Shown in pieces: positions 1,971 through 28,150 of a stretch of DNA of 46,735 bases. The first letter of the stretch is position 1, and every line of letters starts with the position of its first letter. This stretch comes from Actinomycetes bacterium (GTDB lineage: Bacteria > Actinomycetota > Acidimicrobiia > Acidimicrobiales > RAAP-2). The stretch lies in assembly GCA_021827705.1 (NCBI GenBank), contig JAKAUQ010000008.1, positions 1 through 46,735 of the forward strand. The letters run 5' to 3'. Both the position numbers and the translations under genes were made by a program. The notes under the pieces were generated by a model, which had not been told where the DNA came from, did no database searches, and saw nothing but the letters and a program-made list of their open reading frames with translations.

Positions 1971-2642
1971 TCACAGCTCCAGGCGGTAGCCCACGCCCGG
2001 CTCGGTGAGAAGGTGGCGCGGATGCGACGGGTCGTCTTCGAGCTTGCGCCGCAATCGGGCAAAGAGGGTGCGCAGGTACTCGGTCTCGGTCCCGTACCCC
2101 TCGCCCCACACCTGCTCGAGCAGGTTCTGGTGAGTCACCAGCTGTCCCGGGTGGCGCACCAGGATGGCCAGCGCGGCCCACTCCTTGGGCGTGAGGTGCA
2201 CCAGCTCGCCGGCTCGCTCGACGCGTCGGTCCGTCAGGTCGATGGTGATCTGCCCCACGTGGACGACGGGCTCGCTGACCGACACCCGCCGCCGCGAGAC
2301 CGCGCGCACCCGGGCCAGCAACTCGTCGATGCCGAAGGGCTTGGTCAAATAGTCGTCGGCGCCCGCGTCGAGGGCCGCGACCTTGACCGCCTCCTGGGGT
2401 CGCGCCGAGAGCACGATGATGCCGGCCTCGCTCCAGCCTCGCAACGCCTCGATCACCTGGATGCCCTCGAGTCCGGGCAGGCCGAGGTCGACCAGGACGA
2501 CGTCGGGGTGCACCTTGGCGGCCACGCGCAGCGCCTCGGGCCCGGTGGTGGCGGCGTGGACACTGAAGCCGTGCACCCGCAGGCCGATGCCCAGCGCCCG
2601 GACCAGGGCCCGGTCGTCGTCGACGACCAGAATCGTGCTCAC
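1971..2642 (-). CDS. kdpE: KdpE response regulator
   Basis: KdpE is the OmpR/PhoB-type response regulator that activates kdp transcription when phosphorylated by KdpD. The 223-residue product starts at a GTG (2642) whose bases overlap the kdpD stop codon (GTGA), so the two genes are translationally coupled. A longer upstream reading frame is not needed. The receiver domain (about 1-115) has the acidic cluster VVDDD at 6-10, the phospho-acceptor Asp52 in LVDLGLPG, and the Lys of TKPFGIDEL. The C-terminal winged helix (about 125-223) ends with the family pattern EYLRTLFARLRRKLEDDP and GVGYRLEL. It is the last gene of the operon. No strong terminator is visible downstream. Confidence 0.95.
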   Translation of the reverse strand: MSTILVVDDDRALVRALGIGLRVHGFSVHAATTGPEALRVAAKVHPDVVLVDLGLPGLEGIQVIEALRGWSEAGIIVLSARPQEAVKVAALDAGADDYLTKPFGIDELLARVRAVSRRRVSVSEPVVHVGQITIDLTDRRVERAGELVHLTPKEWAALAILVRHPGQLVTHQNLLEQVWGEGYGTETEYLRTLFARLRRKLEDDPSHPRHLLTEPGVGYRLEL

Positions 2643-5110: not shown

Positions 5111-5119
5111 CCACGCCTC

Positions 5120-5713
5120 CTACTGCCGGCCGAGCCGGTCGAGCGCCAGGTTCAGCTCGAGCACGTTGACGACCGGCTCGCCCAGGATACCCAGGATGCG
5201 TCCCTGGGTGTAGCGCTGGACCAGCGCCCGGACCGCGGCGCGCCGCAGGTGCCGGGCCGCGGCCACGCGCGGTACCTGCAAGAGGGCATTGGCGATCGAG
5301 ATGTCCGGGTCGAGCCCGGAGCCCGATGTGGTGACGGCGTCGACGGGCACCGGGGTGCCGGGCGCCAGGTGATTGAAGGCGCGGTAGGCGCGGGCCAGCC
5401 CAGCGACGCTGCGCAGCAGCACCGGGTTCGACGGGCCAAGGTTCGAGCCGCCCGAGGCCAGCGCGTCGTAGTTCGACGCGCTGGGACGGGGCTGGAAGTA
5501 CTGGGGCAGCGGCTGACCCGCCGCGTTGGTGAAGGCCTGGCCAATCAGTGCCGAGCCCACGGCGTGCCCGTGCGCGTACAGGAGTGAGCCGTTGGCCCGA
5601 CCGGGCATGCTCACCTGGGCGAGCCCCGTCAGCACCAGCGGATAGGCCAGCCCCGTGAGCACGCTGAGGCTCACGAGCATCACGAGCGCCGCACGGATGA
5701 CCCGCCACATCAT
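5120..5713 (-). CDS. kdpC: KdpC, potassium-transporting ATPase subunit C
   Basis: KdpC is the single-span accessory subunit of the KdpFABC potassium pump. The product is 197 residues, the normal length. It has one N-terminal membrane helix (about 5-33, [20 protein letters not shown]). The family pattern of an extracytoplasmic domain follows: GSALIGQAF, then [26 protein letters not shown]. Near the C-terminus [21 protein letters not shown] and [15 protein letters not shown] are diagnostic. The ATG overlaps the kdpB stop (ATGA), so it is coupled to kdpB. Confidence 0.96.
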
Positions 5714-7752
5714 CGCACCCCCAGCGCCGTGACGACGATGTCGATGAGCTTGATGCCGACGAAGGGCATCACCGCTCCTCCGAGCCCGTAGATCAGCAGG
5801 TTGCGTCGCAGGATTGCCGAGGCGCTCGCGGCCCGGAAGTGCACACCCCGCAGGGCTAGGGGGATGAGCGCGACGATGATGAGGGCATTGAAGATGACCG
5901 CCGACAGGATGGCCGAGTGGGGGCTCGACAGGCGCATCACGTTCAAGGCGCCCAGCGCGGGGAACTGCGCGACGAACATGGCCGGCACGATGGCGAAGAA
6001 CTTCGCGATGTCGTTGGTGATCGAGAAGGTCGTGAGGGAGCCGCGGGTGATCAGCAGCTGCTTGCCGATCTCCACGATGTCGATGAGCTTGGTCGGATCC
6101 GAGTCGAGGTCGACCATGTTGCCCGCCTCCTTGGCGGCCTGCGTTCCCGAGTTCATCGCCACGCCCACGTCGGCCTGGGCGAGCGCCGGGGCGTCGTTGG
6201 TCCCGTCACCGGTCATGGCCACCAGGTGCCCCCCGGCCTGCTCACGCCGGATGAGGTTCATCTTGTCCTCCGGCGTGGCCTCGGCCAGGAAGTCGTCCAC
6301 GCCCGCCTCGCCCGCGATGGCCTGTGCGGTGAGGGGGTTGTCTCCCGTGATCATGACGGTGCGGATCCCCATGGCGCGCAGCTGCGCGAAGCGCTCGGCC
6401 ATGCCGGGCTTGACCACGTCCTTGAGGTGGACCACCCCGAGGATCCGGGTCGCGTCGGCCACCACCAGGGGAGTGCCGCCCTGCGCGCTGATCGACTCGA
6501 CGACGCCCGCGAGGTCCGGCGGGGTGGGGACCCCCAGCGACTCGGTCCAGGCCGTCACCGCGCTGCTCGCGCCCTTGCGGATCTGGCGGCCCGCGACGTC
6601 CACCCCGCTCATGCGCGTGTGCGCGCTGAAGGCGATGAGGCTCGCCTCACCGGGCAGCTCATCGGCCAGGACGTACGTGGTGTGCAGGAGCTCCACGATC
6701 GAGCGGCCCTCGGGCGTCTCGTCCGAGAGGCTCGACCACAGCGCCGCCTCGGCGAGCGCCGCGACCTCGACGCCACCCACCGGGACCAGGTCGACGGCCC
6801 GCCGGTTGCCGAACGTGATCGTGCCCGTCTTGTCGAGCAGCAGCGTGGAGCAGTCGCCCGCTGCCTCGACGGCTCGCCCCGACGTGGCGAGCACATTGCG
6901 CTGCACGAGGCGGTCCATGCCCGCGATGCCGATCGCGCTGAGCAGGGCCCCAATGGTCGTCGGGATCAGGCACACGAACAGCGCGACCAGCACCACGATC
7001 GACTGCGTGGCGTGCGAGTAGGCGGCCAGGGGCTGCAAGGTGACGATCACGATGACGAACACCAGGCTCAGCCCGGCCAGCAGGATGTCCAGGGCGATCT
7101 CGTTGGGCGTCTTTTGGCGACTCGCCCCCTCGACCAGCGAGATCATGCGGTCGAGGAAGGTCTCGCCGGGATTCGACGTGATGCGCACGACGATGAAGTC
7201 CGACAGCACGCGCGTGCCGCCGGTCACCGCGGAGCGGTCGCCACCCGACTCCCGGATCACCGGGGCCGACTCGCCCGTGATGGCCGACTCGTCGACGGTC
7301 GCGATGCCCTCGACGATCTCGCCGTCACCCGGGATGATCTCGCCGGGCCCGACCTCGCACACGTCGCCCACGCGCAGCTCGGCCGAGGGCGTGGCCACGA
7401 CCACGCCGTCTCGACGCACGTGGGCTACCGTGTCGGCACGCGTGCGCCGCAGGGCGTCGGCCTGGGCCCGCCCCCGTCCCTCGGCGACAGCCTCGGCGAA
7501 GTTGGCGAAGAGCACGGTGACGGCGAGCCACGCCACGGTCACGCCGGCAAAGACGTTGGTCGCGCGGGAGCTCGTGGCCAGGCCCTGGAGCCAGAAGAAC
7601 GCCGCCAGCACCGTGACGACCTCGACGATGAACATCACGGGGTTGCGCACCAGCGTGCGGGGATCGAGCTTGCGCAGCGCCTCGACGCCCGCGCGCCGCA
7701 CCAAGGCCGGGTCCCGGTGCGCTCTCGAACGGGTAGCCGACACCGTGCTCAT
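5710..7752 (-). CDS. kdpB: KdpB, P-type ATPase subunit of the Kdp potassium pump
   Basis: KdpB is the ATP-hydrolysing subunit of KdpFABC, a P1A-type ATPase in the cytoplasmic membrane. The product has 680 residues, as expected. The phosphorylation motif DKTGT places the catalytic Asp at residue 307, the same number as in E. coli KdpB. Other P-type landmarks are the actuator-loop TGES (in [14 protein letters not shown]), the nucleotide-binding KGASSAV, and the hinge [18 protein letters not shown]. Hydrophobic helices lie near residues 40-85, 215-275 and 585-675. The start is followed by a basic segment. The gene overlaps kdpC by four bases and lies 7 bases after kdpA. Confidence 0.97.
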
Positions 7753-7759
7753 GACCCTC

Positions 7760-9472
7760 CTAGGCGTGCGTGACGAGGTGCTCGACGATGGGACCGAGCG
7801 TGACCACCGGGAAGTACGTCAGACCCACCACGATGACCGTCACGCCGATGAGGAGCGTCGCGAACAGCGCGGTGTCGGTACGCAGGGTGCCGGCGCTGTC
7901 GGGGATCCGACCCTTACGACCCAGGGAGCCGGCGATTGCCATCACGGGCACGATGAGGGCGAAGCGCCCGATCAGCATGCACGCGCCCAAGGCCGTGTTG
8001 AGGAACGTGGTATTGCCGTTCAGGCCCGCGAAGGCCGATCCGTTGTTGTTGGACGCCGAGGTGAAGGCGTACAGCATCTCGGTGAGGCCGTGGGCCCCGT
8101 GATTGAGCAGTGACGCCCGCACGGCGGGCAGGGAGAGGCTGAGTGCGGTGGCCGCCAGCACGCAGGCCGGCACGATCAGGATGTAGAGCCCGATGAGCTT
8201 CATCTCGGCCGCCTGCACCTTCTTGCCCAGGTACTCCGGGGTACGCCCCACCATCAGTCCGGCGATGAAGACCGACAGGATCGCCAGGATCAGCATCCCG
8301 TAGAGCCCGGAGCCCACCCCCCCGGGACTGACCTCGCCCAGCATCATGTTGACCAGGAGCACGCCGCCGCCCAGGGCGGTGTAGCTGTCGCTCATGGAGT
8401 CCACCGCGCCGGTGGAAGTGGCCGTGGCCGAGGCGTTGAAGAGCGCCGAGGGGGCTGCCCCGAAGCGCACCTCCTTGCCGGTCAGGTTGCCTCCCACGAC
8501 GGTGGCGCTGGCGTGCTGGTCGATCCCGTGTCCCAGCAGGGGATTGCCCTGGGCCTCAAGAGCCATGGCCGGCAAGACGGAGCCCATCCACAGCAGGGCC
8601 ATGGCCGCCAGGATCGCGAGGCCCTGGCGCCGGCGCTCGACCATGACGCCGAAGGCCCACGCGAGCGAGAAGGGGATCACCAGCAGCAGCCAGATCTCGA
8701 ACAGGTTCGTGAAGCCGTTGGGATTCTCGAAGGGATGCGCCGCGTTGGCGTTGAAGAAGCCCCCGCCGTTGGTGCCCAGATTCTTGATGGCCTCCTGGCT
8801 GGCCACCGCACCCCCCGGCAGGCTCTGGCGCGCGCCGGCCAGGGTGTGCACGAGGTGCGGCGCGTTCAGGTTCTGGATGACCCCGCTGGCGACGAGCACG
8901 ATCGCGGCCAGGGCCGCCACCGGCAGCAGCACCCGGACGGTGCCGCGCACCAGGTCGACCCAGAAGTTGCCCAGCGTCGCGGTGCGCGAGCGCGACAGTC
9001 CGCGGATCAGGGCGACGGCCACCGCGATGCCGACTGCGGCCGACACGAAGTTCTCCACGGTGAGCCCGACCATCTGGGTCAGCAGCGACATCGCCGTCTC
9101 GCCGCTGTAGTTCTGCCAGTTGGTGTTGGTCACGAAGCTCACCGCGGTGTTCCAGGCCAGCGGCGCGCTCACGGCGGCGGCGTGGCCCGGGTTGAGGGGC
9201 AGCCTCGCCTGGAGCCTCTGGATCCCGTAGACCACGAGCACCGACACCGCCGAGAAGGACAGGAGGCTGGTGACGTAGCCACGCCAGGTCTGCTCGGACG
9301 CGGGGTCCACGCCGCTGACGCGGTAGAGCAGGCCCTCGACGGGTCGAACGACGCGATCGAGGCGGGAGGGTGCCCCCGAGTAGACGCGCGCCAGGTAGGC
9401 GCCCATGACGGGCACGGTGAGCGCCAGGGCGGCCACCACGACCAGGAACTGGACCACGTCGTTGAGGGTCAC
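7760..9472 (-). CDS. kdpA: KdpA, potassium-binding and translocating subunit
   Basis: KdpA forms the potassium-selective channel-like subunit of the KdpFABC pump and is related to the superfamily of K+ transporters. The 570-residue product has about ten hydrophobic helices. It carries the family signatures [11 protein letters not shown] (selectivity-filter region), [21 protein letters not shown] and [15 protein letters not shown]. The start is a GTG at 9472 that overlaps the kdpF stop (GTGA). No frameshift or loss of a filter glycine is apparent. The order kdpF-kdpA-kdpB-kdpC-kdpD-kdpE is the standard actinobacterial arrangement. Confidence 0.97.
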
Positions 9473-9561
9473 GAGAAGCGCTCCGGGAACAGCAGCGCGT
9501 AGACGAGGTAAGCCGCCGTGGCCACCGCCACCACCAGGGAGATCACGTCGTCCGGGCTCAT
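9469..9561 (-). CDS. kdpF: KdpF, small subunit of the Kdp pump
   Basis: This is a 30-residue single-span peptide (MSPDDVISLVVAVATAAYLV, then [10 protein letters not shown]) directly before kdpA. KdpF is a lipid-like stabilising subunit of the KdpFABC complex. The pattern of a short polar N-terminus, one helix, and a YALLFPERF tail is typical of KdpF. Its ATG (9561) overlaps the stop of the upstream 40-aa ORF (ATGA), and its own stop overlaps the GTG of kdpA. Translational coupling on both sides supports that it is real despite its size. Confidence 0.92.
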   Translation of the reverse strand: MSPDDVISLVVAVATAAYLVYALLFPERFS

Positions 9562-9680
9562 CGGGGGACCTCGGCCGTCTCGTCGGCCTCGACGTGGATC
9601 ACGTGCTCGCAGCCCCGCGCCGCCAGACCCATCAGCACGAAGAACCCGATGGTCACCACGACGTACACGATGTCGAGCAC
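9558..9680 (-). CDS. Small membrane protein opening the kdp operon
   Basis: This 40-residue ORF starts at a GTG (9680), with AAGGAGG six bases upstream, the best Shine-Dalgarno in the operon. The peptide has one hydrophobic helix (about residues 3-20, LDIVYVVVTIGFFVLMGLAA) followed by a polar, acidic tail containing GCEHVIHVEADETAE. It overlaps the kdpF start by four bases. From memory, comparable unnamed small ORFs occur just before kdpF in other actinobacteria, which suggests an accessory or leader role for the pump. The function is unknown. Confidence 0.75.
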   Translation of the reverse strand: MLDIVYVVVTIGFFVLMGLAARGCEHVIHVEADETAEVPR

Positions 9681-9704
9681 GTTGGCCTCCTTGCCTGCCC
9701 GTCG

Positions 9705-9764
9705 AACCTACGGTCCAGGGTCCGCGCCGAGCCCGACTTTTGCGTTCTCGTCACGCGTCGCGTG
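9705..9764 (-). promoter_or_regulatory. Likely kdp promoter and operator region
   Basis: Reading leftward, a TAGGTT -10-like box (9710-9705) lies about 25 bases before the first start codon of the kdp operon, with no good -35. About 45 bases further upstream is a perfect inverted repeat, CACGCGTCGCGTG (9752-9764; 6-bp arms, 1-base centre), a plausible binding site for a dimeric regulator. It could serve kdp, the divergent CoA-transferase gene at 9868, or both. A TATGAT hexamer at 9823-9828 on the plus strand may be the -10 of the CoA-transferase gene. Confidence 0.35.
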
Positions 9765-9867
9765 CGGAAGTCCACGCCGTTGTCACGGTGGGTCGGCCGC
9801 GGGGCGGTCGCGAACGGTGGCCTATGATGCGCGGCCGGAACCTCCCCCGGTACCGAAAGGCTCGACC

Positions 9868-11394
9868 ATGCCCCCTCGTGACCCCCAGCGCATCCGCAAC
9901 GCGCGACTCGCGGCCCTGGTGATGTCGGCCGAGGAGGCAGCCGCCTACATCGGCCCCGGCGACAACGTGGGGATGAGCGGCTTCACCGGCTCGGGCTACC
10001 CCAAGGCCGTGCCAGCAGCCCTGGTAGAGAGGATCAAGGCCTCCACGACCCGCGGCGAGGCCTTCAGCGTCGGCGTCTGGACCGGGGCCTCCACGGCCCC
10101 CGAGCTCGACGGGGCCCTGGCCGCCGCTGGCGGCATCGACCTGCGCATGCCCTACCAGTCAGATCCGGTGACCCGGGCCAAGATCAACGCGGGTGAGCTC
10201 GACTACCTGGACCTGCACCTCTCGCACGTCGCCCAGATGGTGTGGGAGGGCTTCTTCGGCCACCTCGACGTGGCCGTCATCGAGGTCGCCGGCATCGCGA
10301 CCAACGGCGAGCTCATCCCCTCGTCCTCGGTGGGCAACAACAAGACCTGGATCGACATGGCCGACCGGGTGATCCTCGAGGTCAACTCCTGGCAGCCCAT
10401 CGAGTTCGAGGGCATGCACGACATCTACTACGGCACCGCCCTGCCCCCGCACCGCCGGCCCATCCAGATCCTCGGCCCGTCGGACCGCATCGGCGTGCCG
10501 TACCTGCGCTGCGCGCCCGAGAAGGTCGTCGCCGTGGTCGAGACCAACGCGCCGGACCGCAACGCGCCCTTCAAGCCGGTCGACGACACCTCCCGGCAGA
10601 TCGCCGGGCACGTGATCGAGTTCCTGACCCATGAGGTGCGCGCGGGCCGGCTGCCCGCGACGCTGCTGCCACTCCAGTCGGGCGTGGGCAACATCGCCAA
10701 TGCCGTCCTGGCCGAGCTCGATCGCGGTCCCTTCCGCCCGCTCACCGCCTACACCGAGGTCATCCAGGACGGGATGCTCGCCCTCTTGCGCTCGGGCACG
10801 CTGTCGTCCATCTCGGCCACGGCGTTCTCGCTCAGCCAGGACGGCGCCACCGAACTGCGCGAGCACATCAGCGACTACCGTGATCGCATTGTCCTGCGAC
10901 CCCAGGAGATCTCGAACCACCCCGAGGTCATCCGGCGTCTGGGCTGCCTGGCGATGAACGGGATCATCGAGGCCGATCTCTACGGCAACATCAACTCGAC
11001 GCACATCATGGGCACGCGCATCCAGAACGGCATCGGAGGCTCGGGCGACTTCGCGCGCAACGCGTACATCTCGATGTTCCTCACGCCCTCGACGGCGGCG
11101 GGTGGCAACATCTCGTGCATCGTGCCGATGGTGAGCCACGTCGACCACACCGAGCATGACGTCCACGTCATCGTGACCGAGAACGGGGTCGCCGACCTGC
11201 GGGGGCTGGCGCCCCGGCGTCGGGCGGCGCGCATCATCGAGAACTGCGCCCACCCCGACTATCGCGACGCCCTGCAGGACTACGTGGACCGGGCCCTGGC
11301 CCACGGCGGGCGCCACACGCCCCACCTCCTGGGCGAGGCGCTGTCGTGGCACGAGCGCTACGAGCAGACCGGCTCGATGCGCCCGCGCCCCTGA
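9868..11394 (+). CDS. Acetyl-CoA hydrolase/transferase family, probable succinate/acetate CoA-transferase
   Basis: The product belongs to family I CoA-transferases that swap CoA between succinate, acetate or propionate. The chosen ATG (9868) gives 508 residues, the usual length (about 500) for the succinyl-CoA:acetate type. The frame is open further upstream, but that part is not homologous in character. Signatures are GDNVGMSGFTGSGYPKAVP near the N-terminus, LQSGVGNIANAVL, and YTEVIQDGML with Glu297 at about the position of the catalytic Glu of AarC-type enzymes (Glu294). The C-terminal pattern is YGNINSTHIMGTRIQNGIGG and ENGVADLRGLAPRRRA. With the acetyl-CoA synthetase at 17184 and the semialdehyde dehydrogenase at 14520, it suggests succinate/acetate CoA exchange. 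The exact acid pair cannot be read from the sequence. Confidence 0.9.
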   Translation: MPPRDPQRIRNARLAALVMSAEEAAAYIGPGDNVGMSGFTGSGYPKAVPAALVERIKASTTRGEAFSVGVWTGASTAPELDGALAAAGGIDLRMPYQSDPVTRAKINAGELDYLDLHLSHVAQMVWEGFFGHLDVAVIEVAGIATNGELIPSSSVGNNKTWIDMADRVILEVNSWQPIEFEGMHDIYYGTALPPHRRPIQILGPSDRIGVPYLRCAPEKVVAVVETNAPDRNAPFKPVDDTSRQIAGHVIEFLTHEVRAGRLPATLLPLQSGVGNIANAVLAELDRGPFRPLTAYTEVIQDGMLALLRSGTLSSISATAFSLSQDGATELREHISDYRDRIVLRPQEISNHPEVIRRLGCLAMNGIIEADLYGNINSTHIMGTRIQNGIGGSGDFARNAYISMFLTPSTAAGGNISCIVPMVSHVDHTEHDVHVIVTENGVADLRGLAPRRRAARIIENCAHPDYRDALQDYVDRALAHGGRHTPHLLGEALSWHERYEQTGSMRPRP

Positions 11395-11415
11395 GGGCGC
11401 GTCCCCGAGCCCGCC

Positions 11416-12327
11416 TCACGTCACGCGACGCAACGGGACCCGTGCCGGCCGCCGCGGGGCCGCCAGCACCTTGACGAACCAGTGATGGGCGTACGGGTTG
11501 TTGCCGAAGGCCGGGACCTCGTGGTAGCCGCTGGTCCGGTACAGGCGGACCGCTTCGCGCAGCGAGGCGTGGGAGTCGAGGCGCACCTCTCGCGCGCCGT
11601 GGTGGCCAGCCCAGTCCTCGAGGGCTCCGAGCAGTCGCCGCGCCACGCCCCGGCCGCGGTGGTCCGGGTCGACCCACAGGTGCTTCAGCTCGACGGTCCC
11701 GTGCTCTTCCGGGCGGGCGATGCCGCACGCGATGGCCCACCCGGCCTCGCGCGCGACCAGGAACGCGCCACCCGCGCGGCGCAGGTCCCCCGGCGCCACC
11801 AGCGCCGTGGCGTCGAACCCCTCGGGGAACCGCTCGTCCAGCTCGGCGCCGTAGGCCGCCAGCATGCGGCGGGCCTCTGTGGACGAGGGGTCGATCTCCT
11901 CGATTGCGCCGTGCCTCGGCGCGACGTCACGTTCCACCTCGCTCAGCAAGGCCGCGAGGCGGTCACGCTGATCCGGCGTCCACGAGACCAGCACGCTGCG
12001 GACCTCCGCGATCGCCGCCTGGTCGAGCGCGTCCCAGGTGCGCCGGCCGGCCCGCGTCAGCTCGACGTGACGCGCGCGGGCGTCGCGCCCGTCGCGCCGC
12101 TCACGCGCCAGGCGGCGCGCCTCGAGATCCCGCAGCGTGCGAGACAGCTGGCTGGCATCGATCGCGAGGTGGGCCCGCACGCGCGCCACGGGCGCGCCGC
12201 CCGGACCGATATCGACGAGCACCCGGGCCTGCGTCGCCGTCAAGGACAGTGCCGCGTGCGCGCGTGCGGGCGCGTCGCGTCCCCAGAAGATCCGGCGAAC
12301 CAGACGCTCGAGGTCGTCTCCCTCCAC
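11416..12327 (-). CDS. MarR-type regulator fused to GNAT acetyltransferase
   Basis: This two-domain protein has an N-terminal MarR winged helix (about residues 1-140) and a C-terminal GCN5-related N-acetyltransferase (about 150-303). The helix-turn-helix includes AIDASQLSRTLRDLEARRLA, and the wing RRDGRDARARHVELTRAG is typical of MarR. The GNAT acetyl-CoA loop is WVDPDHRGRGVARRLLG, followed by AREVRLDSHASLREAVRLYR and a GYHEVPAFGNNPYAHHWFVK tail. The start is taken as GTG at 12327 because a TACTCT -10 box ends six bases upstream. A GTG at 12384 would add 19 residues and run into the divergent promoter. Such fusions are known in actinobacteria and proteobacteria. The acetylated substrate is unknown. 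Confidence 0.88.
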   Translation of the reverse strand: MEGDDLERLVRRIFWGRDAPARAHAALSLTATQARVLVDIGPGGAPVARVRAHLAIDASQLSRTLRDLEARRLARERRDGRDARARHVELTRAGRRTWDALDQAAIAEVRSVLVSWTPDQRDRLAALLSEVERDVAPRHGAIEEIDPSSTEARRMLAAYGAELDERFPEGFDATALVAPGDLRRAGGAFLVAREAGWAIACGIARPEEHGTVELKHLWVDPDHRGRGVARRLLGALEDWAGHHGAREVRLDSHASLREAVRLYRTSGYHEVPAFGNNPYAHHWFVKVLAAPRRPARVPLRRVT

Positions 12328-21032: not shown

Positions 21033-21515
21033 TCAGATGAACAGGTTGAGGCTCGCCTTCTCGGCCTCGGCGAGGTAACTCGCCACGCCGACGTAGTCCA
21101 GTCCGTCGATCAGCTCCTCGGGGGTGAGCCCCATGACCTCCATGGACATGGTGCAGGCCAGCATCGTGACCTCCTGCTCGCGCGCACTGGCGATGAGCTC
21201 TTCCAGGCTCATGATGTTGCGATCGCGCATCACGCGCTTCATCAGGCGCGGGCCCAGGCCGGCGAAGTTCATCTGCGACAGGGGGAGCTGGGCGGGCCCG
21301 CGCGGCATCAGGCGGCCGAACATCTTCTGGATGCCCGTCTTGCCCGACGTGGCCACGTGCTCGGGCCGGCGCAGGGCGTTCAGCCCCCAGAAGGTGAAGA
21401 ACATGGTGACGTCGTCGCCCATGGCCGCAGCACCGTTGGCCATGACGAAGGCGGCCAGCACCTTGTCCATGTCGCCGCTGAACACGACGATGGTCTTCTT
21501 GGAGGTATCAGTCAT
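21033..21515 (-). CDS. DsrE2-type sulfur carrier protein
   Basis: DsrE/DsrF-family proteins carry sulfane sulfur as a persulfide; the DsrE2 subgroup occurs with TusA and Hdr-like clusters in sulfur oxidisers. The 160-residue product starts KKTIVVFSGDMDKVLAAFVM (Rossmann-like), then MFFTFWGLNALRR, LPLSQMNFAGLG and the persulfide-site region VTMLACTMSMEVMGLTPEEL. Cys121 is the only cysteine and sits at the position expected for the sulfur-accepting residue. The ATG overlaps the end of the upstream membrane-subunit gene by 8 bases, so it is the last coupled gene of the operon that opens with tusA. It probably exchanges sulfur with TusA. Confidence 0.9.
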   Translation of the reverse strand: MTDTSKKTIVVFSGDMDKVLAAFVMANGAAAMGDDVTMFFTFWGLNALRRPEHVATSGKTGIQKMFGRLMPRGPAQLPLSQMNFAGLGPRLMKRVMRDRNIMSLEELIASAREQEVTMLACTMSMEVMGLTPEELIDGLDYVGVASYLAEAEKASLNLFI

Positions 21516-22731
21516 AGGTCCTCTCTCCGCTCACCGACCGCGCGCGAGCCAGCGCGTGGAAGAACAGCGCCACGGGGCGGTAGACGACGTGGGCGAACTT
21601 GCCGAAGGGCAGCAGGACCAGCAGGTCGAGGGCCAGGGCCACGTGGGCGATGAAGACGCCGTAGCCGAAGGTCGCGCCGCCCGGGACGTACAGCGAGAGC
21701 TCGGTCACCAGGCCGGTCAGCCCGACCAGCCACAGCACGGCCAGGAAGAGCCAGTCGGCAACTTCCGAGGTCTTTACCGAGCGCTCGACGCGACGCAGCC
21801 GGTTGAGGGCCAGCACGCTCACGCCGTAGAGGAAGGCCAGGCCCGCGAGCGTCCCGAGGAGGCGGACGGGATACCACACCGGCTCAGGGGTCCCCGTCGC
21901 TCGCAACCCGACCAGGGAGAGACCGTAGTCGGCCATGGTGGCCACCAGCAGGCCCGTGAAGCCCCACATCGTCAGCCCGTGGACCAGCCAGCGCCGGCGC
22001 CACCAGGGTGCGCGCGCGGACTCCTCCTCGGCGCAGTCGTCGCGATAGCGCCGGAAGGCCAGGGACTCCGAGACGACCGCCGACCAGGCCGCCGACCAGG
22101 CGAGCGCCCGCCCCGGCGCGGCCGTCAGGGTCTTCCAGGTGACGCCTTCACGCCGGGCGAGACCGCGCACCATCGAGACGACCCCCACCACCATGACGGC
22201 GGCGACCAGGACCATCGCGGCGACTCCGGTCCAGTGCACCGTCGACTCGGGCACGAAGCGGAAGAGCGCCACCTGGCGAGACGGCGCCGTGCGCGCGACG
22301 CCGAGCATCGCCCCGCCCAGCACCAGCGCGACCAGGACCGCCAGGGCGATCGCCCGGCGCGGGCGCCGGTAGAGGGCGCCGGCCAGGCCGGTCACGTCGT
22401 AGCCGGCGATGGCGTAGCGGCGCGCCGCGGCCATGAAGCCCGCCGGATCGGCGCCCTGCGGGCAGCTCTCGGTGCACAGGCCGCAGTGGTAGCAGGTCCA
22501 CAGCTCCTTAGACCCGAGCAGGTCCTCGCGCAGGCCGAGCAGCCCGTAGCGCAGCAGGCGACGCGGGAAGGTCGCGTCGTCGTCGACCAGGGGGCACGTC
22601 GCCGTGCAGGTCCCGCAGCTGAAGCACGCCGCGAAGTCGCGCGCGCCAAAGGCTCGCAGGTCGGCGGCCAGGCCCGGCTGGAGCCGGACCGGGACGGCCG
22701 TGGCGGGCCGGGTGTCCACATCGACGCTCAC
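21508..22731 (-). CDS. QmoC-like HdrC/HdrE fusion, quinone-interacting membrane subunit
   Basis: The 407-residue product combines an N-terminal HdrC-type ferredoxin domain with a C-terminal HdrE/NarI-like cytochrome b membrane domain, the architecture of QmoC. Two [4Fe-4S] motifs are visible: C36-x2-C39-x2-C42-x3-C46-P (CFSCGTCTATCP) and C80-x2-C83-x2-C86-x3-C90-P (CYHCGLCTESCP). About six membrane helices follow (near 129-150, 168-195, 245-265, 285-310, 325-345 and 355-390). Histidines in VHWTG, LVHGLTMWG, IAHVAL and KFAHVVY could ligate heme b. No CCG (HdrB/HdrD) domain is present. The GTG start overlaps the upstream gene (GTGA). It would pass electrons between the soluble HdrA-type subunits and menaquinone. 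Confidence 0.9.
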   Translation of the reverse strand: MSVDVDTRPATAVPVRLQPGLAADLRAFGARDFAACFSCGTCTATCPLVDDDATFPRRLLRYGLLGLREDLLGSKELWTCYHCGLCTESCPQGADPAGFMAAARRYAIAGYDVTGLAGALYRRPRRAIALAVLVALVLGGAMLGVARTAPSRQVALFRFVPESTVHWTGVAAMVLVAAVMVVGVVSMVRGLARREGVTWKTLTAAPGRALAWSAAWSAVVSESLAFRRYRDDCAEEESARAPWWRRRWLVHGLTMWGFTGLLVATMADYGLSLVGLRATGTPEPVWYPVRLLGTLAGLAFLYGVSVLALNRLRRVERSVKTSEVADWLFLAVLWLVGLTGLVTELSLYVPGGATFGYGVFIAHVALALDLLVLLPFGKFAHVVYRPVALFFHALARARSVSGERTYD

Positions 22732-22979
22732 GCGAGCACCTCCTCGTCAGACGCGACCAGCTGGTAGCGGAAGTAGCCCTCGTCGTCGCTGTCGGGGACC
22801 TCGACGACCTGCCGGTAGCGCCGCATGCCCATCACCCACAAGAGGACCTCTTCGGGAGGGCGGCCCAGGCGCTCGGCCAGCTCGGGGACCGTGAGGGGTC
22901 CCCCGGCCAGCTCGCGCCGGATCGGCGCGTGCATCAGCGGCTCGTCCCGGATGACCTCGCGTCGGTCACGCTCCCTCAT
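22728..22979 (-). CDS. Small winged-helix-like protein within the Hdr/Qmo-like operon
   Basis: This 83-residue product is coupled at both ends (ATGA overlap with the upstream hdrA, GTGA overlap with the downstream membrane subunit). Residues about 27-50 (GGPLTVPELAERLGRPPEEVLLWVMGMRRYRQV) look like a helix-turn-helix, and the C-terminal half, with an acidic PDSDDEGYFRYQLV strand pair, looks like a wing. It has no cysteine, so it does not carry a cluster. It could be an assembly factor, a subunit of the complex or a regulator. I do not recognise a named family. The tight packing argues that it works with the complex. Confidence 0.75.
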   Translation of the reverse strand: MRERDRREVIRDEPLMHAPIRRELAGGPLTVPELAERLGRPPEEVLLWVMGMRRYRQVVEVPDSDDEGYFRYQLVASDEEVLA

Positions 22980-24742
22980 GAGACCAGCACCTCCTCGTGC
23001 ACCGGAGCCACCATGCCCTCGATCATGAGCTCCACCTGGGCGGTCGTGACCCCGAGCAGGTCGATGGCCTCGTTCGGGCAGTACGGGGCGCAGCCGCCGC
23101 AGCCCTTGCAGGCCGACGGGTCGATGTGGGCGACCGCGACGCCGTCGACCTCCACGCGCGAGATCGCGTCGTAGGGGCAGACGCTCGCGCACTCGCCACA
23201 CCACGCGCACGACGTCCCCACGACGGCGACCAGCGGGTTCAGCTCGGCCTGGCCTTTCAGCAGCATGGCCCCACTCTGGGCCACAGCCGCCAGGGCGCTG
23301 GCCACGCTCTCCGAGACGGTCTTGGGCCCCTGGCTGGCGCCCGCGATCAGCACGCCGTCGACCACCGTCTCGACCGGGCGCAGCTTGGGGTGGATCTCGT
23401 TGTAGAAGCCGTCGGATCCCAGCGGCAGCTTGAGCAGGCTGGTGAGGTCGTGGTTGGGCGCGGCCACCATGCCCGTGACCAGGACGACCAGGTCGACGGG
23501 GATCTCCAGCTCGTCGGGACCCGTGAGGGTGTCTCGGGCCGTGACGACCAGCTGATCCCCCCGGCGCGCGACGTCGGGCGGCGCGTCGTCGGCGTACTTC
23601 AGGTAGACCGAGCCGCGCTTGCGGGCCTCCTCGTAGAGCAGCTCGTAGACCCCGTAGGTGCGCACGTCGCGGTACAGGTGATACTGGGTCACCCGGTCGT
23701 CGCGCGCGGCCACCTGGACGGCCACGTGGGCGGTCGCCGTGCAGCAGTACTTCGAGCAGTACTCGTTGCCCCCGGGCTGGCGGCTGCCCACGCAGTAGAC
23801 GTAGGCGATCGAGCCGACGGGGCGTCCCCGATACTGCAGCGGCCCGGGCGACGCGTCGACCATCGCGGTGAACTCCGGCAGCGTCACCACGCCCTCGATG
23901 CCGTAGCCGAACTCGCCGAGCGCCGGCTCGTAGGAGGCGAAGCCCGTCGCGATCACCAGGACCCCGACCGTGGCGGTGACCGGCTCGGTCCCGGGGGGCC
24001 CCTCGAGCCGGACCTCGTAGTTGCCGAAGGATCCCGACTTGGCCACCAGCTCGGTCTCCAGGAGCACCCGGATCGACGGGCGGTCGGCGACCTCGGCAAC
24101 CAGCTGGGCGATCAGCTCGCGGCCCGACTGGTTACTCGGGAACATCGCTCCGAGCCCCCCGACGGCCCCGCCCAAGTGGTCGGTCCGCTCGATCAGGGTC
24201 ACGCCGAGCCCGAGGTCGGCCAGGCCCACGGCCGCGCGCAGGCCGGCGACGCCGCCGCCGACCACCAGGGCGCTGGGCACCGTGTCCACGGTCACCGGCT
24301 CCAGGGGCACCGAGAGGCTAGCGTGGCCGATCCCGGCGCGCACCAGCCCGGCGGCCTTGGCGGTCGCCCCGGGTCGGTCGTCGCTGTGGACCCACGAGCA
24401 CTGCTCACGGATGTTCACCTGCGTGTACTGGAACTGGTTGAGCCCCGCGCGCCGCGACACGGCCCGGAACGTCGGGACGTGCAGCTTGGGCGAGCACGAG
24501 GCCACGACCAGGCCGTCGAGCCCGTCACGCTGGATGCGCTCGACCATGTCGTGCTGAGTCGCGTCCGAGCAGGCGAACAGGGTCGTCTCGGCGTGCACCA
24601 CGTTGGGATCCGTGGCCACGGCGTCGCGGACCGCGGCCACGTCGACGAAGTCCGAGATGTTGCCCCCGCAGTGGCAGATGTAGACGCCGATCCGGCGGTG
24701 CTCCGCGTCGGAGGTCGGGGTGGTCAGTTCCTCGTCGGGCAT
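22976..24742 (-). CDS. HdrA-like flavoprotein (canonical heterodisulfide reductase subunit A form)
   Basis: The 588-residue product has the full HdrA layout. The N-terminal domain begins GVYICHCGGNISDFVDV (about 19-35) with later ASCSPKLHVPTFR. The FAD-binding Rossmann motif is VGGGVAGLRAAVGLADLG (about 161-178), and the HdrA signature is YCVGSRQ..CSKYCC (Cys317, 329, 333, 334). Two C-terminal [4Fe-4S] clusters follow: C512-x2-C515-x2-C518-x3-C522-P and C545-x2-C548-x2-C551-x3-C555-P. HdrA proteins are the flavin hub in heterodisulfide reductases and in QmoA/QmoB. The ATG touches the stop codon of the preceding GltD-containing gene (TGATG). It should pair with that protein as the second flavoprotein of the complex. 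Confidence 0.93.
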   Translation of the reverse strand: MPDEELTTPTSDAEHRRIGVYICHCGGNISDFVDVAAVRDAVATDPNVVHAETTLFACSDATQHDMVERIQRDGLDGLVVASCSPKLHVPTFRAVSRRAGLNQFQYTQVNIREQCSWVHSDDRPGATAKAAGLVRAGIGHASLSVPLEPVTVDTVPSALVVGGGVAGLRAAVGLADLGLGVTLIERTDHLGGAVGGLGAMFPSNQSGRELIAQLVAEVADRPSIRVLLETELVAKSGSFGNYEVRLEGPPGTEPVTATVGVLVIATGFASYEPALGEFGYGIEGVVTLPEFTAMVDASPGPLQYRGRPVGSIAYVYCVGSRQPGGNEYCSKYCCTATAHVAVQVAARDDRVTQYHLYRDVRTYGVYELLYEEARKRGSVYLKYADDAPPDVARRGDQLVVTARDTLTGPDELEIPVDLVVLVTGMVAAPNHDLTSLLKLPLGSDGFYNEIHPKLRPVETVVDGVLIAGASQGPKTVSESVASALAAVAQSGAMLLKGQAELNPLVAVVGTSCAWCGECASVCPYDAISRVEVDGVAVAHIDPSACKGCGGCAPYCPNEAIDLLGVTTAQVELMIEGMVAPVHEEVLVS

Positions 24743-27468
24743 CAGTGCACCTCCAGAGGCACCCGCCGGCGCGGGTGCGCGACTTCGAGCGTGGCGGCCG
24801 CCTGGGCGACGGCGGCTCCCGCGTGCATGATCGAGTCGACGATGTCCTTGGCCCCCGACGAGGCGCCCGCGACGTACACGCCCGGGATGCTCGTACGGCC
24901 CGGGCTGTGATCGCCCGCCGGCTCGGCGACGAACCGGAACTCGCTGGCGGCCAGATCCTCCTCGTCAAAGAGGTGCAGGGCGTCGGGGTTGGGCCGCACG
25001 CCGACCGACAGCACCACGAGGTCGTACTCGGCCTCCACGACGCGCCCGCCGTTCTCAATGTCCTCGTAGAAGACCCGCAGGTCCCCGTTGTCCTTCTCCT
25101 CGATCTTGGCCACCCGACCCTTGATGTAGGTCGCGCCCATGTCCTTGCCCTGGGAGAAGAACTCCTCGTAGCGCTTGCCCGCCGCGCGCATGTCCATGTA
25201 GTGGGTGGTGACGTCGGCCAGGGGCAGGGCCCCCATGATCAGCTGGTGCTGCTTGATCGAGTACATGCAGCAGATCTTCGAGCACAGGGGGTTGTCGACG
25301 GTGCGGTCGCGCGAGCCCACGCAGCTGACGTAGGCCACGCGTTCGGGCACCTTGCCGTCACTGGGCCGCAGGACCGTGTTGAAGGGCCGCGTCGGTGCGA
25401 GCAGGCGGTCCATCTCGGTGGCGGTGATCACGTTGGGGAAGGTGCCATAGCCGTACTCGGGCTTCTGGTAGGCGTCGAACAGCTCGTAGCCCGTGGCCAC
25501 CACGACGGTGTCCACCTCCAGGTCGAGCATCTCGTCGTGCTGCTCCAGGTGGATGGCGTCAGCCGGGCACACCCGCGAGCAGGCGCCGCACTCCGAGCAC
25601 ACCCCGCAGTCCAGGCAGCGCGACACGCCATCGAGCGCCTCGACCTCGGTGAGGGCCGGCTCGAGCTCGGCGAAGTCGTGGGGCGTCACCGAGAAGTCGA
25701 TGCCCGACACGGCGGGGTCGCGGCGCGAGTGGGTCCGCTGGCGCGCTAGCACCGCGGCGTGGTCGACGACCGCCAGGCGGTCGTCGAGCGCGTGGAAGCC
25801 GTCGAGGGGCTCGCCGCGCAGCCAGCGGTCCAGCATGTGCGCCGCGCGCCGACCCTGGCCGACAGCCCGGGTGATGTCCGAGGGGCCCGTGACGGCGTCT
25901 CCGGCGACGAACACGCCGGGAAGAGCCGTCGCCAAGGTGGTCGGATCGGCCACCAGCGCACCGGACCCGTCGTGGGACAGGGCGGCGAAGGCGTCGCCAT
26001 CGGGGCGCAGCCCGATGGCCGAGATCACCAGGTCGCACGCGACGACGCGCTCGGCTCCGGGGATCGCCTCGGGACGACGCCGGCCCGACGCGTCGGGAGG
26101 TCCCAGGCGCATCTCCTGGCAGCGCACCGCGCTGGCGTGGCCCGCGGCGTCGGCGACGACCTCGGCCGGTGCGAGCAGGAAGGCGAACGAGACGCCTTCC
26201 TGCTCAGCGTCCTCGGCCTCGACGTGGTTTGCGGGCATCTCCCCGCGGCTGCGGCGATAGACCACGGTCACGGCCGCGCCCAAGCGACGGGCGGTCCGTG
26301 CCGCATCCATGGCCACGTTGCCGCCCCCGACCACGACGACTGTGCGACCCGACAGGTCCCAACTCTCCCCCTCGCGCACCGCGCGTAGGAACGCCAGACC
26401 GCTGGTGACGCCCGCGTGCTGCTCACCGGGGATGTGCAGCGACTGGGCCAGCGGCGTCCCGGTGGCCACGACGACCGCGTCGTAGCCCGCGGCGCGCAGC
26501 CCGGCCACGTCGTCGACGGGGTGGTCGACGACGATCTCGACGCCGAGCGCCGTGACGTTGGCGATGTCCTGGTCGACCGCGGCCCGCGGGAGCCGGTACT
26601 CGGGCAGCGCGTAGCGCAGGAACCCGCCCGGCTCGTGCGCGGCCTCGAAGATGGTGACCGCGTGACCGCGGCGCGCCAGCTGCCAGGCGGCGGTCAGCCC
26701 GGCCGGGCCCGAGCCAACGACGGCCACGCGCTGACCCGTCGGCGCGGCCGGCTCGACGCCGGGACCGTCGTAGGTGGCGTAGTGCCAGTCAGCGACGAAG
26801 CGCTTCAGGCGCCGGATCGGCAGGGTGCCCTCCAGGTCCCCCCGGGTGCAGGACTCCTCGCAGGGGGCGTAGCAGGCGCGCCCGAGCGTCGCCACCAGCG
26901 GCGTCGCCTCCAAGATCAACTGGAAGGCCTCCTCGTAGCGGCCGTCACGGATGAGCGCCACGTAGCCGTGCGCCTTGATGCCCGCCGGGCACGCGTCGGT
27001 GCACGGCGAGGTCCCCGCACGCTCGAGCACCGCCTTCTTCGGCACGGCCTGGGGGAAGGCGATGTAGGCGGCGCGGCGGGCGGCGAGGTCGTAGTTGAAC
27101 TGGTCGGGCACCGCGACCGTGCAGGCCACCTCGCAGTCCTGGCAGCCCGTGCAAGCCGACCAGTCGACGTACTTGGCGCGCTGGCGCACGGTGGCCGCGA
27201 AGGTCCCGTCGCTCTGGCGACGGATGCCCTCGACCTCACTGGTCGTGAAGGTCGTGATGTTGGGGTGGTTGACGGTCGAGGACATCTTGGGCCCCGAGAT
27301 GCAGCTCGCGCAGTCGAGGGTCGGAAAGACCTTCGACAGCAGGATCATGCGCCCGCCCACGCTCGCCTGGCGCTCGACCAGCGCCACCGAGTAGCCCATG
27401 TCGGCCAGCTTCAGGGACGACTCCATCCCCGCGATCCCGCCGCCGACCACCAGTGCGTCGAACTTCAT
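24742..27468 (-). CDS. HdrA-like flavoprotein with inserted GltD-type NAD(P)H oxidoreductase module
   Basis: The 908-residue product, starting at ATG 27468 (overlapping the upstream stop), is an HdrA interrupted by a complete glutamate-synthase-small-subunit (GltD/NfnB) module. Residues 1-150 carry HdrA FAD motif VVGGGIAGMESSLKLADMG, the DCASC pair and ferredoxin motif C106-x2-C109-x2-C112-x3-C116. Residues about 150-560 are GltD-like: SPCTDACPAGI, RACYAPCEESCTRGD, FAD motif VVGSGPAGLTAAWQLARRG (about 250) and an NAD(P)H site VVVVGGGNVAMDAARTARRL (about 377-396). Residues about 600-908 resume HdrA: the Cys cluster C618-C634 (CLDCGVCSECGACSRVCP), CVGSRDR..CSKICC (Cys716, 729, 733, 734) and GVYVAGASSGAKDI. 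This adds an NAD(P)H entry/exit point to an Hdr/Qmo complex. Confidence 0.93.
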   Translation of the reverse strand: MKFDALVVGGGIAGMESSLKLADMGYSVALVERQASVGGRMILLSKVFPTLDCASCISGPKMSSTVNHPNITTFTTSEVEGIRRQSDGTFAATVRQRAKYVDWSACTGCQDCEVACTVAVPDQFNYDLAARRAAYIAFPQAVPKKAVLERAGTSPCTDACPAGIKAHGYVALIRDGRYEEAFQLILEATPLVATLGRACYAPCEESCTRGDLEGTLPIRRLKRFVADWHYATYDGPGVEPAAPTGQRVAVVGSGPAGLTAAWQLARRGHAVTIFEAAHEPGGFLRYALPEYRLPRAAVDQDIANVTALGVEIVVDHPVDDVAGLRAAGYDAVVVATGTPLAQSLHIPGEQHAGVTSGLAFLRAVREGESWDLSGRTVVVVGGGNVAMDAARTARRLGAAVTVVYRRSRGEMPANHVEAEDAEQEGVSFAFLLAPAEVVADAAGHASAVRCQEMRLGPPDASGRRRPEAIPGAERVVACDLVISAIGLRPDGDAFAALSHDGSGALVADPTTLATALPGVFVAGDAVTGPSDITRAVGQGRRAAHMLDRWLRGEPLDGFHALDDRLAVVDHAAVLARQRTHSRRDPAVSGIDFSVTPHDFAELEPALTEVEALDGVSRCLDCGVCSECGACSRVCPADAIHLEQHDEMLDLEVDTVVVATGYELFDAYQKPEYGYGTFPNVITATEMDRLLAPTRPFNTVLRPSDGKVPERVAYVSCVGSRDRTVDNPLCSKICCMYSIKQHQLIMGALPLADVTTHYMDMRAAGKRYEEFFSQGKDMGATYIKGRVAKIEEKDNGDLRVFYEDIENGGRVVEAEYDLVVLSVGVRPNPDALHLFDEEDLAASEFRFVAEPAGDHSPGRTSIPGVYVAGASSGAKDIVDSIMHAGAAVAQAAATLEVAHPRRRVPLEVH

Positions 27469-27890
27469 GCCGCCACCTCCGCGGGCAGGGCGGCCAGCAG
27501 GGCCGCGAACTCGTCCATGTGCTTGACGAAGGCCTCCGAGCACACCGAGCACAGTGCCGCCATGCGCACCCGTTCCAGAGCGATGCCCAGATCGCGCAGG
27601 CGCTCTTGAGCCTGCGCGGCGATGCGCGAGGAGCGCGCGTTGCAGTCGGGCAGGTAGGCGCACTCGTCGCCGTCGATGGCCAGGAAGACCCCATCGAAGC
27701 CGTGCTGGAGGGCGTAGACGATCCAGCGCGGCTGGACGCTCGAGGAGCACGGGACGGTGATCGTCGAGATGGTCGAGGCGTAGTGGCGGTGCTGGCTGCC
27801 CGCCAGATCGATACCGGGGTCCGAGATGTTCGCCGTGGAAAACACCAGGATCCGCGGCGATGCGGCACCGGCCCCGTGGCCGGCGCCCAC
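27465..27890 (-). CDS. MvhD/FlpD-like iron-sulfur subunit, divergent
   Basis: MvhD proteins carry a [2Fe-2S] cluster and link hydrogenase or other donors to HdrA; in QmoB the same domain is fused to HdrA. The 141-residue product shows the family frame FSTANISDPGIDLAGS, then VPCSSSVQPRWIVYALQHGFDGVFLA and a GDECAYLPDCNARSSR segment. Compared with typical MvhD (FCCNWC..GADLAG..RVPCSGRVDP), the N-terminal CCxxC is absent. Cys48, Cys77 and Cys83 remain, and an extra CSVC pair (Cys114, Cys117) is present. It overlaps the tusA stop by one base and the hdrA-gltD start by four. The changed ligand set suggests a different cluster or a thiol/persulfide role. Confidence 0.85.
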   Translation of the reverse strand: MGAGHGAGAASPRILVFSTANISDPGIDLAGSQHRHYASTISTITVPCSSSVQPRWIVYALQHGFDGVFLAIDGDECAYLPDCNARSSRIAAQAQERLRDLGIALERVRMAALCSVCSEAFVKHMDEFAALLAALPAEVAA

Positions 27891-28150
27891 TACTTCACCT
27901 TGCGCAGGTACAGGCGGATGTAGCCGGCGTCGTCGTAGTCGCCCAGGTACTCGTTGCCGACCTTGAGCGTCCAGGCCGGCAGGTCCTTCTTGGTGCCCGA
28001 GTCGGTCGCCAGGACCTCCATGACGCCCCCGACGGGGACCTGGCCGATGTTCTTCTTGGCCGCCAGGATCGGGCCGGGGCAGGACGTCCCACGGGCGTCA
28101 ACGGTGACGTCCACGTGCAGGTCCTTCAGGTCTTCTACCGCGACTGCCAC
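27890..28150 (-). CDS. TusA-family sulfur carrier protein
   Basis: TusA proteins accept and pass on sulfur as a persulfide on the first Cys of a C-P-x-P motif. The GTG start at 28150, with AGGAGG seven bases upstream, gives 86 residues, the usual size. The motif is ARGTSCPGPILAAKKN with Cys24; the C-terminal half (GGVMEVLATDSGTKKDLPAW) is also typical. It is the first gene of the seven-gene operon. Together with DsrE2 at the other end it points to sulfur transfer to or from the Hdr-like complex. A role in tRNA thiolation or molybdenum cofactor is less likely from context. Confidence 0.92.
   Translation of the reverse strand: MAVAVEDLKDLHVDVTVDARGTSCPGPILAAKKNIGQVPVGGVMEVLATDSGTKKDLPAWTLKVGNEYLGDYDDAGYIRLYLRKVK

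Follow-up and report, generated by a model that had tools for sequence, protein, structure and literature searches.

What does a Qmo-like electron-transfer complex do when its genes are flanked by those of two sulfur carriers? The question is raised by seven consecutive genes (21033–28150) on contig JAKAUQ010000008.1 of an Actinomycetes genome (GCA_021827705.1; 1.78 Mb, 97% complete), analyzed here as a stretch of 46,735 nucleotides ("the window"; contig C38 of genome G000). By sequence, they are predicted to encode two differing HdrA flavoproteins, the first with a GltD-type module, a separate MvhD, a QmoC-type membrane subunit and a small winged-helix protein, with TusA and a DsrE2-like protein at the two ends. 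We tentatively read these products as a membrane-bound Qmo-like oxidoreductase, fed by dedicated sulfur carriers, which joins sulfane sulfur, menaquinone and NADP(H) reversibly; we are nearly, though not quite, as inclined to accept this proposal as to doubt it.

All seven open reading frames (ORFs) lie on the minus strand, and consecutive ones overlap, in operon order, by 1, 4, 1, 4, 4 and 8 bases, just as a first-pass annotation of the sequence had described. Pfam and NCBIfam searches of the seven proteins also uphold its view of a Qmo/Hdr hybrid with an unfused MvhD and no HdrB: none of the seven matched the CCG domain in the Pfam search, on which basis an HdrB hidden in the operon was rejected. 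To what extent is this set conserved? With the first HdrA as query, a scan of genome contigs found 38 loci, and these, together with five further actinobacterial loci, were mapped by tblastn (43 loci, numbered L below; genomes are numbered G). The closest public loci are contigs of metagenome-assembled genomes from Actinomycetes and Acidimicrobiaceae. Six core genes (tusA, mvhD, hdrA, hdrA, winged-helix and qmoC) are all present in 27 of the 43 loci, and in all 27 their strand and order are identical; the fixed gene order, which the first-pass annotation had proposed to look for elsewhere, is therefore not due to chance. These complete loci come from Actinomycetes/Acidimicrobiaceae, Aminicenantes, Acidobacteria, Chrysiogenales, Krumholzibacteriota, Bacteroidales/Bacteroidetes, Anaerolineae, UBP1 and others. 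The remaining 16 lack at least one core gene and are mostly short contigs ending within the cluster; L029 has no TusA, L068 only an N-terminal piece of QmoC, and L039 is unrelated.

TusA (27890–28150; Pfam TusA, 63.8 bits) and a DsrE-family protein, noted at first pass as flanking the set, are, judged by their genes, constant companions of the complex: tusA is one of the six core genes, and an in-cluster DsrE-family gene is found in 24/27 complete loci. The cysteine of the CPGP motif of TusA is present in all aligned rows shown, and tusA is the only gene of its family found in its own genome. The DsrE2-like protein (21033–21515; Pfam DrsE_2, 198.1 bits) has one conserved cysteine in a 15-row alignment and scores 84.4 bits in the NCBIfam DsrE2 equivalog model, below the cut-off of 210. 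The DsrE gene occupies four positions: it may follow qmoC, which is the window's arrangement, precede tusA, or separate either mvhD from hdrA or the winged-helix gene from qmoC; the sulfur carriers are therefore kept although their placement varies. Three complete loci have no DsrE gene in the cluster: the contig of L008 ends just after qmoC, L067 has an upstream match to the DsrE2 model (110.4 bits, cut-off 210) and L069 only a weak DsrE match (34 bits).

The first HdrA (24742–27468) is QmoA-like, without the N-terminal domain, and houses a complete GltD-type FAD/NADP(H) module (25810–27015 by tblastn; PRK12771, 487.8 bits; Pyr_redox_2, 153.3 bits; Fer4_20, 62.0 bits) with the motif GGGNVAMD. 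The match covers residues 153–551. Cluster cysteines 105/108/111/115 lie before it and 623/626/629/633 after it, so that the inserted ferredoxin domain is split by the module. Its nucleotide motif is GGGN(V/A/T)A, i.e., GxGxxA, in 21/21 rows showing the motif. Under the rule that GxGxxA is the NADP-type and GXGXXG the NAD-type motif (PMC12054007; here and below papers are cited for their excerpted text), this points to NADP, rather than NAD, as the probable partner, which makes the NAD(P)H site of the first-pass annotation plausible and narrows it.

The module is missing in L020, L022–L032 and L069. A tree of 23 rows implies at least three switches between its presence and absence (the root is not known, so that gain and loss are indistinguishable, and L069 sits on a long branch), as expected of an exchangeable electron port. 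As a separate observation, left unused as evidence, L020 carries a free GltD-type gene about 0.9 kb past qmoC, with one ORF between and an IMP-dehydrogenase-like sequence after it. Both forms also meet on a single contig, G016:C50 (L088, L028), which holds two operon copies: GltD and a winged-helix fusion are found in one, and the other has no GltD. A further HdrA gene (583 amino acids) and a partial QmoC-like gene lie downstream of the operon on the opposite strand (L028:16527–19041).

Residues reported to support flavin-based bifurcation in HdrA are Lys409 and Glu356 (PMC12054007), counted here in 5odc numbering on an alignment with 5odc_A. The first HdrA has Lys at 409 in 30/30 rows and an acid at 356 (Asp 19, Glu 11), after setting aside four rows truncated at the site and leaving out the shorter L019 and L021 before alignment; the window's own protein keeps the equivalents of Lys409 (its Lys738) and Asp356. 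The second HdrA (22976–24742), which is QmoB-like without the MvhD domain, aligns with the HdrA of 5odc over most of its length (368.9 bits) and scores best in the NCBIfam HdrA2 model (442.7 bits, below the cut-off of 1100). It has His at 409 in 26/26 rows (His339 of the window's protein), and position 356 is Lys in 9, Glu in 7, Thr in 5, Arg in 4 and Asp in 1 (L012, too short, was left out). Because the Lys409/acid-356 pair is retained only in the first HdrA, its flavin site looks fit for bifurcation and that of the second does not, which confines the bifurcation envisaged at first pass to one of the two flavoproteins.

The other redox subunits are an MvhD-like (FlpD) [2Fe-2S] electron-transfer protein (27465–27890; Pfam FlpD, 93.2 bits), whose gene is unfused both here and across the mapped related loci (36 loci aligned), and the QmoC-like protein (21508–22731), composed of an HdrC domain with two 4Fe-4S motifs and a cytochrome-b-type membrane part. 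The latter matches the NCBIfam QmoC model over almost its whole length (197.8 bits, cut-off 300). Its two CxxCxxCxxxC motifs, C233, H251, H363 and H381 are invariant in 25/25 rows, and the subunit appears equipped for contact with quinone. A sequence search of the PDB returned HdrC chains and a few unrelated iron-sulfur proteins, but no solved QmoC.

The gene between the second hdrA and qmoC (22728–22979) encodes 82 amino acids without a Pfam or NCBIfam match at E 0.001 and with only weak, unrelated matches in a PDB sequence search. Its predicted structure is a winged helix (pLDDT 85.5); the nearest solved folds are MarR/ArsR regulators, matched weakly (best E 1.1e-3), and an Aminicenantes homologue barely passes HTH_20 (27.8, cut-off 27). 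In two Bacteroidales loci, L036 and G016:C50, the second HdrA carries this protein as a C-terminal fusion (in G016:C50 the winged-helix match falls within a 669-residue frame holding HdrA), which favors a role as a structural subunit. The same fusions led us to reject the reading of it as purely a regulator, although it may also have some regulatory role. An AlphaFold model of the natural HdrA/winged-helix fusion has a low-confidence linker (585–602) and gives no packing information. An alignment of 16 members of the family, which neither a Pfam nor an NCBIfam model names, shows L24, T30, P32, M50 and Y72 without exception.

Several genes beside the operon may indicate its metabolic setting. 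A sulfide:quinone reductase (SQR) adjoins it in L002–L004, matching the solved SQR chain 3szw (258.8 bits, E 8.4e-76), and L067 has a type III SQR next to it (616.2 bits, cut-off 525). A class-V aminotransferase, for which the best models are cysteine desulfurases, adjoins tusA in five loci (L015, L017, L018, L034 and L035). In 17 loci tusA and mvhD are separated by an ArsR-type gene whose product has two cysteines invariant in 17/17; its nearest sulfur-sensor model is BigR (76.8 bits, below the cut-off of 155). In L067 an ArsR gene without the two cysteines is found upstream of tusA. Upstream of the operon copy of G016 (the genome of L028) that has GltD and the winged-helix fusion, genes on the same contig encode a transporter of the YedE/TsuA type (Sulf_transp, 102.4 bits), a DsrC-family protein, two class-V aminotransferases and an iron-sulfur protein nearest to HmcF, TmcB and DsrK (293.2, 292.5 and 240.0 bits, all under cut-off). 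Judging by these sequence matches, the neighbors point to sulfur metabolism.

Another contig of the window's own genome (L087, G000:C15:11000–22575; 9002–11576) holds a cluster of type III SQR, DUF1641, TusE/DsrC and a second DsrE2, without dsrAB; this SQR gene is cut by the contig end and scores 511.3 bits against a cut-off of 525. On the same contig (L087:1–621) we noticed a protein that combines a twin-arginine-like signal with ferredoxin-type cysteines and by eye resembles the B subunit of an enzyme of the dimethyl sulfoxide/polysulfide-reductase type.

How could such a complex work? We propose that the two HdrAs pair as in QmoAB, that MvhD and QmoC dock on this pair with the winged-helix protein as a structural subunit, and that TusA and DsrE present sulfane sulfur (Cys-SSH) to the assembly. 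Electrons would pass between sulfide/persulfide and both menaquinone, via QmoC, and NADP(H), via GltD. In HdrABC the mid-, low- and high-potential ports are MvhD, the inserted ferredoxin domain and HdrC, respectively. By homology, the corresponding ports here would be MvhD, then either GltD or the inserted ferredoxin domain, and finally the HdrC part within QmoC, and because of this assignment bifurcation at the first HdrA would be the likeliest coupling. Electrons of sulfide/persulfide would be split at its Lys409-type FAD, one going to menaquinone and one to NADP+, or to ferredoxin in forms without GltD; in reverse, NADPH and quinol would together drive the reduction of sulfane sulfur. The sulfide/persulfide couple lies between the potentials of menaquinone, NADH and ferredoxin, and could be bifurcated or, in the opposite direction, reduced by confurcation. 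The excerpted literature gives these potentials, for EtfABCX, as about −74 mV, −320 mV and −450 mV, respectively. Coupling and direction of electron flow are the least certain steps, and the specifically bifurcating form, in which sulfide or a thiol is oxidized to carrier persulfide with electrons split to menaquinone and NADP+ (or ferredoxin), is a possibility that we regard as unlikely on balance.

Several observations weigh against a sulfur-linked reversible complex. The main gap is the missing sulfur-active site: the set holds neither an HdrB/CCG site nor any other recognized one, and C233 of the QmoC-like protein is the only invariant cysteine left without an assigned role. The QmoC-like, DsrE2-like and ArsR proteins all fall under the specific NCBIfam cut-offs, and DsrE2B of Metallosphaera was unreactive with the sulfur compounds tested (PMC4175335). 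An SQR neighbor is not obligatory, since the window's flanks match those of L002–L004, yet the window has no SQR at the corresponding place. Genome-wide counts, which cover 22 carrier genomes of mostly unstated completeness, so that single absences are weak, add further points. The TusE/DsrC family occurs in 6/22 carriers and is thus unsupported as a constant substrate. The window's genus has DsrC in 16/61 genomes and, where the operon state is known, in 3/6 carriers (one a partial match) versus 1/11 non-carriers, an association that is suggestive only. Finally, COX1 is over cut-off in 8/22 carriers (the seven actinobacterial genomes and G015) and in none of the other 14, which are 14 of the 15 non-actinobacterial ones; carriers exist both with and without it, and therefore no single respiratory role fits.

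An unlikely alternative that nevertheless fares best among those considered is an NADP(H)- or ferredoxin-dependent menaquinone oxidoreductase with a non-sulfur substrate, TusA and DsrE serving cofactor assembly or redox control. The redox parts other than the sulfur carriers are indeed generic Hdr/Qmo/GltD modules, no sulfur-active site is recognized and the bifurcation residues of the first HdrA are retained, all as this would have it. It leaves unexplained, however, why a DsrE-family gene and TusA remain in the cluster across distant lineages, and it fits poorly with SQR, desulfurase-like and sulfur-sensor-like neighbors.

Rather improbable, to our judgment, is a sulfane-sulfur (persulfide) reductase that works in one direction only and spends NADPH and menaquinol on converting carrier sulfur to sulfide, as an electron sink or for detoxification. 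GltD-type NfnA/SudA enzymes do reduce polysulfide with NADPH (PMC5736913), the cysteine-desulfurase-like genes adjoin tusA in five loci, and the near-general lack of COX1 over cut-off in non-actinobacterial carriers (14/15) would suit such a sink. But a simple reductase has no need of a Lys409-type FAD, and in aerobic actinobacteria that have SQR next to the operon, reduction alone would seem futile.

We consider quite improbable a variant sHdr pathway, oxidizing carrier-bound sulfane sulfur to sulfite with HdrB activity borrowed from a CCG protein encoded elsewhere. TusA and DsrE2 accompany Hdr parts in sHdr as well (PMC4378227, PMC6776052), several actinobacterial carriers have SQR, and each of the 22 carrier genomes encodes at least one CCG-domain protein. 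However, the operon is without an HdrB or HdrC pair, and in G000–G005 (the window's genome and the next five actinobacterial ones) both CCG matches are confined to a single ORF of about 700 amino acids on another contig. This remote protein combines Fer4 and CCG domains, has its best NCBIfam score to TfrB and, we presume, resembles the common membrane iron-sulfur oxidoreductases of the Etf:menaquinone type. No lipoate-binding protein was recognized among the genes around the operons or in the window, a genome-wide search for one not having been made.

A canonical QmoABC serving adenosine 5′-phosphosulfate reductase can be dismissed as highly improbable, for although the composition resembles QmoABC, MvhD is unfused, QmoC is below cut-off, and neither aprA nor dsrA is over cut-off in any of the 22 carriers. 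Partnership with AprAB or DsrAB, whose genes the first-pass annotation had proposed to look for, was rejected on these counts; aprA also gave weak matches, none anywhere near 641.75 bits, in 14 genomes, and these were taken for related flavoproteins. The first-pass interpretation as a whole is partly supported.

The operon is an accessory trait of scattered occurrence. A profile of the winged-helix protein matches in 7/396 Actinomycetota genomes, in 3/395 from the phylum to which G016 belongs (G016 counted), and in 8/27 genomes of the window's genus (its own included) against 0/73 others of its family. The weakest of the seven actinobacterial matches, G330, has no operon genes nearby (L070) and was not counted as a carrier. 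Elsewhere in the window (1971–9472), genes resemble, by eye, those of a KdpABC potassium ATPase and a KdpD/KdpE two-component system.

Two open questions are touched by this operon: the source of low-potential electrons in sulfur users, and the role of Qmo/Hdr relatives without Apr and Dsr. A conserved, sulfur-carrier-linked complex would extend dissimilatory sulfur metabolism past what the Dsr, Apr and sHdr marker genes cover, in an occurrence spanning aerobic actinobacteria and lineages without COX1 over cut-off. The fused winged-helix subunit would be a new element of Hdr/Qmo-type complexes, and the forms with and without GltD make a natural experiment on electron-carrier change in HdrA complexes. 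If bifurcation is true, it would supply NAD(P)H or reduced ferredoxin to sulfur-using bacteria without reverse electron transport, through a low-potential port swapped between lineages by gain or loss of one domain.

How does the operon compare with known systems? Its parts have precedents in QmoABC, "type II" Qmo, type III HdrA/HdrL and sHdr, and it is the fixed combination that is without precedent in the literature searched; neither the combination nor a characterized operon of the same gene order was found in the excerpts of open-access (PMC) papers, supplements and subscription papers being outside this scope. The YTD cluster of sulfur disproportionators (PMC12998232, PMC8780430) likewise contains tusA and dsrE, and YedE is nearby in G016, but the cluster is described without HdrA, MvhD and QmoC. 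The sHdr system, hdrC1B1A-hyp-hdrC2B2 with TusA, DsrE and LbpA, known from Sulfobacillus and Thermomicrobium (PMC4378227, PMC6776052), likewise places TusA and DsrE beside an HdrA-based complex, whereas the operon described here has no HdrB and carries QmoC and MvhD instead. A GltD module within HdrA has precedents both in archaea, with type III HdrA (PMC12054007), and in Desulfobacterium autotrophicum, with HdrL (PMC2702500); there too it sits in the inserted ferredoxin domain, and MvhD is adjacent. The neighbors of these two proteins are Mvh, HdrB-type proteins, formate dehydrogenase or dsrABC, in contrast to the second HdrA, QmoC, TusA and DsrE found here, and the type III motif is the NAD-type GXGXXG, unlike the NADP-type motif of the present insert. 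With QmoABC and "type II" QmoABC (PMC10504309) the operon shares two HdrA-type flavoproteins and a QmoC-type membrane subunit; QmoABC has MvhD fused in QmoB, and the present set departs further from both in its constant winged-helix gene and TusA/DsrE, in its frequent GltD insert and in the lack of aprA over cut-off in the 22 genomes. The type II proteins, said in the same paper to need study, are set apart from ours by description only and could be the same. With HdrABC-MvhADG (PDB 5odc), finally, the operon has in common the MvhD family and an HdrA with which its second HdrA aligns; it is without HdrB and MvhA/G, and a membrane QmoC replaces HdrC–HdrB.

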